From Candidatus Gastranaerophilales bacterium (lineage in GTDB: Bacteria; Cyanobacteriota; Vampirovibrionia; Gastranaerophilales; Gastranaerophilaceae), in assembly GCA_905236055.1 (NCBI GenBank), contig CAJOOA010000078.1, forward strand, positions 1-33,907: a stretch of DNA of 33,907 nt. The letters run 5' to 3'. A program made the position numbers and the translations under genes. Within the stretch, counting starts at the first letter, position 1. The number at the start of each line of letters is the position of its first letter. Below the pieces are notes generated by a model, which worked only from the letters and a program-made list of their open reading frames with translations, had not been told where the DNA came from and ran no database searches. This document shows positions 3,336-33,898 of this stretch, in pieces.

Positions 3336-3595
3336 AGCCGTACTCCACGGGGACTTAGCGGATCTCTCGACCCGAACGCTTAGCGGGGTGCAGAGCCTAC
3401 TGTGAGGGATTCAAAAAGTTTGACAATGTTTTTAAGGTTGTTGAAGGTTTAGGATATGATGGCGTAAGCTATCGAACCGTGTCAGGATGGAAACATAGCA
3501 GCACTAAGATAATCCTTACGGGTATTATATTTCTAAAAATGAGATTTTAATTTCAAAGTCAAGGTTTTTGTATTTCGATAGGTAGTGGTACGGTT
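3336..3595 (+). ncRNA. ffs: signal recognition particle RNA, large bacterial type (6S/scRNA-like)
   Basis: RNA component of the signal recognition particle, which binds Ffh and targets nascent membrane proteins. Domain IV is unmistakable at about 3481-3512: GTGTCAGG, a 10-nt hairpin ATGGAAACAT, then AGCAGCACTAAG, matching the conserved CAGG / AGCAGC asymmetric loop. The 5' part (CGGGGACTTAGCGG and following hairpins) resembles the Alu domain of the Bacillus subtilis large SRP RNA, so this is the long type. The 5' AGCCGTAC (3336-3343) pairs with GTACGGTT (3588-3595), closing the molecule and fixing both ends. An extended -10 promoter lies just upstream and an intrinsic terminator immediately downstream. 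The apical tetraloop reads GAAA closed by AUG/CAU rather than the more usual GGAA closed by UCC/GGA. Confidence 0.9.
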
Positions 3596-33591: not shown

Positions 33592-33673
33592 GCTATTCTC
33601 CGATATAAGTTTACCCTAAAAATAAATTTTAAACAATTAATACTTGATTTAAAGATTTGTCTATGATAAGTTG

Positions 33674-33692: not shown

Positions 33693-33782
33693 GGGCTGAT
33701 AGCTCAGGTGATTAGAGCACTCTGCCGAGCAAAAGGTGACTAAATGTCACGTTTTTGTGAGAGGCCTGATAAGGGTCAGCCC
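33693..33782 (+). pseudogene. tRNA-Ile-like truncated element
   Basis: A 90-nt segment resembling tRNA-Ile. The 5' part GGGCTGATAGCTCAGGTG... (33693-33718) matches the first 26 nt of the real tRNA-Ile at 24 of 26 positions, including the D arm. CCTGATAAGGGT (33765-33776) matches its anticodon loop and 3' stem. The acceptor 3' strand TCAGCCC (33776-33782) pairs perfectly with GGGCTGA. The T arm is absent, and 46 nt with a strong hairpin (GTGAC TAAAT GTCAC) replaces the usual 5-nt anticodon stem section. It cannot be a normal tRNA. It sits between the GT2 gene and the tRNA-Ile promoter, and may be a degraded duplicate or an element with its own role. Confidence 0.55.
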
Positions 33783-33813
33783 TTGACAATAGGTTTTGAA
33801 AGTTTAATATAAA
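33783..33813 (+). promoter_or_regulatory. promoter of tRNA-Ile
   Basis: A perfect TTGACA (33783-33788) abuts the end of the tRNA-like element. TAATAT (33805-33810, 16-nt spacer) and TATAAA (33808-33813, 19-nt spacer) are candidate -10 boxes. Predicted start lies just before the tRNA at 33822. Confidence 0.6.
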
Positions 33814-33821
33814 TAGTACGT

Positions 33822-33898
<77 letters not shown>

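Follow-up and report, generated by a model that had tools for sequence, protein, structure and literature searches.

The tRNA-Ile locus and its truncated duplicate

The window, i.e., the whole stretch of 33,907 nucleotides analyzed here from a Candidatus Gastranaerophilales contig, carries near its 3′ end an intact tRNA-Ile (GAT) gene at 33822–33898, which was called by ARAGORN and scored 63.6 bits against the Rfam tRNA family. Like the neighboring features described here, it lies on the forward strand. The gene is preceded by a 90-nt chimera (33693–33782) that opens with a truncated duplicate of nt 1–26 of the tRNA, comprising the acceptor 5′ strand and the D arm (33693–33718; 24 of 26 positions identical to 33822–33847, i.e., two differences). 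This duplicate is interrupted by a 46-nt insert at 33719–33764, hereafter hp1, which consists of ACTCTGCCGA, a stem, a TAAAT loop, the returning stem and GAGAGG. The rest of the duplicate follows at 33765–33776 as the anticodon-loop segment CCTGATAAGGGT, copying CCTGATAAGGG(T); it is identical to the corresponding tRNA-Ile segment and is kept in the Ile units of relatives. The chimera ends with TCAGCCC (33776–33782), able to pair with GGGCTGA at 33693–33699 and directly abutting the TTGACA box that begins at 33783. A preliminary description had already recognized the partial tRNA copy, the hairpin-bearing insert, the anticodon-loop part and the abutting promoter box, as well as the absence of a T arm, all of which direct comparison with tRNA-Ile bears out.

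The chimera itself is not a tRNA gene by current models. ARAGORN called one gene, and the Rfam family RF00005 reached its score only at 33822–33895, which is the intact tRNA; lacking the T arm, the chimera does not possess the RF00005 cloverleaf. The 90 nt fold better than their shuffled counterparts, whether treated as RNA (z −3.5) or as DNA (z −3.6). The unit measures about 100 bp and contains no gene. Elsewhere in the window, 3338–3593 corresponds to the bacterial large signal recognition particle RNA (88.8 bits).

The promoters of this locus indicate how its parts are arranged. In 12 of the 14 congeners compared whose locus is hp1-free, a conserved promoter-like segment, TTGATTTnnAAAnATGTCnATGATAAATTA, lies upstream of tRNA-Ile with 0–3 mismatches to the consensus. 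The window retains this ancestral-type segment (TTGATTT..TGTCTATGATAAGTTG) at 33644–33673 with 4/26 mismatches to the consensus (shuffles: mean 11.7, minimum 6), now situated 5′ of the chimera. The intact tRNA is instead preceded by an unrelated promoter-like sequence (TTGACA-16-TAATAT) at 33783–33810, which differs from the ancestral promoter at 12 of 26 positions. Therefore, the 5′ part of the chimera sits at the old gene start, with the complete tRNA and a new promoter behind it. A simple tandem duplication taking in promoter and tRNA fits another locus (L285) and the arrays described below, but not the window, as its two promoters are unrelated. Within the genus, hp1 occurs patchily at the tRNA-Ile locus and is absent there in most sampled congeners. 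Between hp1 and the tRNA, the motif TTGAMAAYTNAATA is found in 68% of units, compared with 28% of hp1-free tRNAs and 2–4% of shuffles; it may be the usual tRNA promoter in these genomes or part of the inserted unit.

The insert as a member of a dispersed hairpin family

When the chimera region was used as a search query, its part 33719–33764 matched other sites in the same genome and in nearly all congeners searched. These matches are often serial, spaced about 90–150 bp apart, and most do not cover the rest of the chimera. Thus, while the tRNA-like element noted previously is real, it is not a solitary mimic, since its insert belongs to a dispersed hairpin repeat family that had been overlooked; the window copy also matched model R1 at E 7.8e-11. 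Copies of hp1 are about 45–46 nt long. In 22 aligned copies, the ends ACTCTGCCGA and GAGAGG are near-invariant, and the CTCT/AGAG ends form the base of the stem. An A precedes CTCT in 286 of 287 copies, and the flanks outside vary with tRNA type.

Covariation in the stem is strong. Both-sided changes were found in 7 of the 11 pairs of the long helix among the 22 copies, and 28 two-sided-change cells were counted, whereas shuffles gave 8.0 and slid controls no more than 9. Because the copies are related and hence not independent, P values given here serve as guides only. Mismatches in the outer stem are asymmetric between strands (29 G·T versus 7 A·C in 138 distinct copies, among which related copies are again not independent), and some copies have tandem G·A/A·G pairs in place of Watson–Crick pairs. 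Reading of the hp1 fold therefore seems to be confined to one strand, in the form of RNA or single-stranded DNA. The sequence pattern of a UGCC bulge and GA/GA further resembles a k-turn-like internal loop (UGCC-GA/GA). No Rfam family matches hp1; among the CRISPR families of Rfam, the best match had E 1.1.

Related or parallel inserts were also observed. In some tRNA-derived units, a second class of insert beginning with GGGGGTAAAT (or GGGGTAAAT) takes the place of hp1 (L333, at G000:C114:17000–17477; L334, L058, L028 and L113), and this class also occurs in tandem after tRNA-Val-like fragments. The unit before tRNA-Met at L334 (G000:C76) has an hp1-like hairpin with the same loop and different ends (AACTGAACGAGGAAAGTGACTAAATGTCACGTTACAAGTGAAGTTAGG). 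In genome G099 (L102, L105, L108, L111), hp1 variants lie within a longer dispersed repeat, and many copies form same-strand pairs 51 nt apart.

Distribution across genomes

A covariance model built from aligned copies was used for genome searches and detected hp1 in all 58 genomes of the genus and in 125 of 146 genomes sampled from the order, with 1–69 copies per genome with a match. G099, G138 and G110 are examples of genomes rich in copies, and G076, G174 and G190 of genomes that have none. Candidatus Gastranaerophilales are non-photosynthetic Cyanobacteriota. Among 194 genomes sampled from the class, all of the matches listed belong to this same order, and hp1 was not found in the sampled class lineages outside Gastranaerophilales. 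By name, the matches are Candidatus Gastranaerophilales and further gut metagenome-assembled genomes; the few labeled Muribaculaceae, Acinetobacter, Bacilli or Clostridia are presumably mislabeled or contaminated bins. Hence, in the samples searched, hp1 is confined to Gastranaerophilales. Searches of viral contigs, phages and plasmids gave no match, and a phage or plasmid origin was rejected on this ground.

Nearly all of these genomes are draft assemblies, and in that of the window each of the seven hp1 copies is near a contig end; copy numbers are therefore probably lower bounds. In the same genome (G000: C13, C21, C25, C27, C29, C33, C43, C54, C74, C78, C111, C118), about one third of the 38 tRNA genes are situated at contig ends, and hp1 repeats probably break the assembly at tRNA genes.

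Association with tRNA genes

Proximity to tRNA genes was assessed in three genomes with listed tRNA genes (38–42 each). Copies within 450 bp of a tRNA numbered 11/12 in G072, 12/36 in G138 and 5/7 in G000, compared with expectations of 0.25, 0.61 and 0.15. This corresponds to 20–44 times the expectation in the individual genomes and to 28/55 versus about 1 in the pooled data. Across named genomes, 59 of 89 assessable copies adjoin tRNA genes. The orientation is nearly fixed: all 28 tRNA-proximal copies in the three genomes are located 5′ of the tRNA in sense or 3′ of it in antisense, and the pooled loci comprise 146 copies of the former class, 36 of the latter, and 8 and 1 in the remaining two, such that 182 of 191 read into the tRNA.

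In these units, hp1 typically comes 8–26 nt into a truncated copy of one tRNA end; the duplicate resumes briefly after the hairpin and stops, and beyond it lies an intact tRNA of that type. About 20 tRNA types are targeted, as is 5S rRNA. Each tRNA has its characteristic insertion point: 8 nt for some Met units with initiator-type sequence, 11 nt for most Met, Leu and Lys units, 18 nt for most Val and Ala units, 19–20 nt for most Pro units and 26 nt for Ile, as in the window; in Arg, Glu, His, Gln, Leu-CAA and Phe units it lies 10–14 nt from the 3′ end. Units can be arrayed, e.g., four identical 90-bp units before tRNA-Lys, and hp1 pairs are arranged head-to-tail in 62 cases versus 8. Beyond tRNA genes, antisense 5S rRNA duplicates hold hp1 copies (L043, L206), and hp1 also occupies the loop of a dispersed palindrome, whose filled copies can be set against one unfilled copy. 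The tRNA end is duplicated at hp1 units without a target duplication of fixed length. The duplication may vary in length among units, because a long direct repeat in the flanks (at least 20 bp) occurs in only 69 of 158. An exact target duplication or excision footprint was not definable, and the target tRNA loses a few bases in some units.

Acceptor pairing and conservation of tRNA-Ile units

The joint alteration of the acceptor ends had been taken as a sign of constraint. Among 31 tRNA-Ile units, including that of the window, the complement of the acceptor 5′ strand is present at the expected place with 7/7 pairs in 2 and with at least 6/7 in 7 (mean shuffle P 0.61), and the 3′ acceptor-like strand is as variable as the flanking DNA (majority base 46% versus 41%). 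Thus, GGGCTGA and TCAGCCC can pair, but acceptor-stem compensation as a conserved RNA feature was rejected; in relatives the hairpin covaries and the acceptor pairing is not kept. For all tRNA types, complementarity between the tRNA fragment and the 3′ tail reached P ≤ 0.05 in 25 of 227 units, which is barely above chance, and general pairing of this kind was rejected except for tRNA-Ala units, where it is clear. The matched acceptor ends of the window unit are therefore at most a local feature.

Conservation of the Ile units instead climbs toward the hairpin, from 74% (nt 1–9) through 80% (nt 10–17) to 98% (nt 18–26), and the 12 nt after the hairpin are 91% conserved, with flank level reached beyond; as positions 22–26 and CTGATA were demanded by the search pattern, only the remaining positions are informative here. 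In several genera, the tail of tRNA-Ile units (CAAATGCTC) is inversely complementary to a stretch immediately 5′ of the intact tRNA (GCATTTG), with the promoter enclosed between them (L282, L287, L289, L291, L296).

Origin of the chimera

It is reasonably probable that the chimera arose when hp1, a small mobile palindromic element, inserted into the tRNA-Ile gene with a duplication that left the tRNA intact. The truncated tRNA–hairpin chimera would have stayed behind the old promoter, and an intact tRNA with a new promoter would have come to lie downstream. Movement is favored by the sharp ends of hp1, its dispersed copies with unrelated flanks, the filled and empty sites, the arrays and the variety of targets. 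Of the options raised in the preliminary description, a mobile-element scar is accordingly the one favored by the evidence, given a dispersed, family-wide repeat with sharp ends that has hit many tRNA genes and is absent at this locus in most sampled congeners. The element would move in DNA form, with a single-strand mechanism probably recognizing the hairpin on one of the strands, and such recognition would fit the strand asymmetry of hp1. Insertion and duplication may be coupled, and selection would keep those events that leave an intact tRNA; the persistence of intact tRNAs is expected under selection in genomes with about 40 tRNA genes. The element is probably non-autonomous, and no autonomous partner was found. 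Against this reading count the failure to link a transposase to hp1, the target duplication and excision footprint that were not definable, and the long flank repeat in only part of the units. A bolder proposal is that hp1 represents a family-wide class of mobile element targeting the folded tRNA or its gene, in which a structured 45-nt hairpin, as single-stranded DNA or RNA, enters tRNA genes from one end or the other and rebuilds them, a new promoter included, thereby being tolerated by essential single-copy genes; this is conceivable but doubtful.

The most substantial rival, which we nevertheless consider unlikely, holds that tRNA promoters drive transcription of the units into functional RNAs derived from tRNAs; these would fold about the conserved hairpin and its k-turn-like loop and act in tRNA expression, in processing or as decoys. 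Stem covariation and the excess of G·T over A·C would suit an RNA, as would the higher frequency of the GA·GA variant in 5′-sense copies (20/86 distinct hairpins). The strongest argument is that the core GGTTAGAGC-hp1-CCTGATAAGGGT is kept across genera while its flanks are not (some positions being required by the search pattern), and that it is placed behind a tRNA promoter, which in the window is the ancestral one. Moreover, tRNA-Ile units occur in many genera with an identical insertion point and partly homologous tails, an observation that tells against insertion and also fits an ancient, retained RNA. However, the acceptor pairing is not kept, the complementarity of fragment and tail barely exceeds chance overall, 36 of 191 copies are antisense units at tRNA 3′ ends, others lie in 5S rRNA and unrelated palindromes, and presence at tRNA-Ile is patchy within the genus. 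The earlier suggestion of a regulatory tRNA mimic or decoy had its basis in the compensation of the acceptor stem, a feature that relatives do not keep, and it is further weakened by these antisense, 5S rRNA and palindrome copies.

The remaining explanations fare worse. That hp1 is a REP sequence mobilized by RAYT (Y1) transposases is suggested by its small size, high copy number and strand-asymmetric hairpin, and by the occurrence of RAYT genes in the clade, two of them adjoining hp1-bearing tRNA loci. These two genes (L246, L249; 176–181 aa) lie a short distance downstream of tRNA-Met and tRNA-Glu, each behind the palindrome GTAGGTTGGG..CCCAAC (or GTAAGTTGGGG..CCCCAAC). A RAYT origin was nonetheless rejected and is very improbable: no RAYT is present in G000, G005, G014, G015, G138, G110, G086 or G148 despite 7–41 hp1 copies each, both neighboring RAYTs have this GTAG-type palindrome of their own, GTAG follows just 66 of 287 hp1 copies, and hp1 pairs are predominantly head-to-tail. 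It is comparably implausible that the chimera is a neutral, degraded tRNA duplicate whose hairpin is accidental. Truncated copies without a T arm would be the expected leftovers of tandem duplication, but the same hairpin family recurs in duplicated pieces of about 20 different tRNA genes in many species with near-fixed orientation; for the hairpin an accidental origin is already refuted, and the acceptor-end changes of the window unit may be neutral. Finally, replication template-switching, in which a strand stalls after copying 8–26 nt of the tRNA, jumps to an hp1 donor and back again, and then slips backward so that the gene is copied anew, would account for an intact tRNA nearly always lying 3′ of hp1 on the hp1 strand and for duplication of a promoter or terminator on either side. 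It is scarcely credible here, as no microhomology is evident by eye at the junctions and the use of one specific hairpin is left unexplained.

Significance and comparison with known systems

Genes for tRNAs are the classical landing sites of large mobile elements. A minimal palindrome inside the duplicated ends of about 20 tRNA genes across one bacterial family, in near-fixed orientation, has not been described as far as our literature search showed; the search returned no description of it. The family would offer a system for studying the movement of very short repeats and the tolerance of essential genes to insertions. In practical terms, hp1 may be the reason for the breaks at tRNA genes in assemblies of gut Gastranaerophilales, where tRNA annotation and the prediction of promoters are affected by it as well.

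After inserting at their tRNA attachment sites, integrative elements are flanked by a piece of the tRNA on one side and by a complete tRNA on the other. The hp1 units are likewise inserted in a tRNA gene and leave a fragment plus an intact tRNA; at the window locus, nt 1–26 of the tRNA occur on both sides of the insert, with the tRNA restored by duplicated sequence downstream. Unlike such elements, hp1 units are about 100 bp long, lack an integrase, use many tRNA types and duplicate the 5′ as well as the 3′ end. The rtT repeats of Escherichia coli tyrT are tandem and each contain the terminal part of the neighboring tRNA, as hp1 units do, but they are 178-bp units at one locus, with no hairpin family common to different tRNA types. 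Serial hp1 copies do not constitute a CRISPR array, in which regular repeats alternate with unique spacers of similar length: the spacing is mostly 90–150 nt and the intervening DNA is repeated tRNA and promoter sequence. A MITE would carry terminal inverted repeats and a short target duplication and have a related autonomous element; in hp1, the CTCT/AGAG ends make up the stem base, the tRNA end is duplicated over no fixed length, and no autonomous partner turned up.

Among small palindromes, Rickettsia palindromic elements (RPEs) and CGTC repeats lie inside genes at fixed sites with function spared, and CGTC repeats have no known dedicated transposase (PMC3767692, PMC3733652). Copies of hp1 are similarly small and palindromic and sit at fixed sites within genes whose function is not destroyed; RPEs, however, measure 100–150 bp and are known from open reading frames, whereas hp1 resides in tRNA and 5S duplicates and carries the CGTC tetranucleotide in 0 of 287 copies. 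GTAG-tagged REPs, associated with RAYTs and also present in Cyanobacteria, are short dispersed palindromes of variable copy number with G-T pairs in the stem and a tendency to cluster (PMC3733652), all of which they share with hp1. The two differ in that hp1 has no conserved GTAG tag, no linked RAYT and head-to-tail arrays, and in that it lies in tRNA duplicates, whereas GTAG REPs are found mainly downstream of coding regions. In a GTAG REP or REPtron, more than 90% of copies would end in GTAG and the RAYT gene would be flanked by the same repeat; where GTAG does follow hp1 it matches the tRNA's own D-loop sequence, the RAYT genes next to hp1 loci have a different palindrome, and several high-copy genomes lack RAYT. 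The recurrence of hp1 in nearly all members of the family, mostly in several copies each and mainly within duplicated tRNA pieces, suggests a small mobile element, not described before, that targets tRNA genes.
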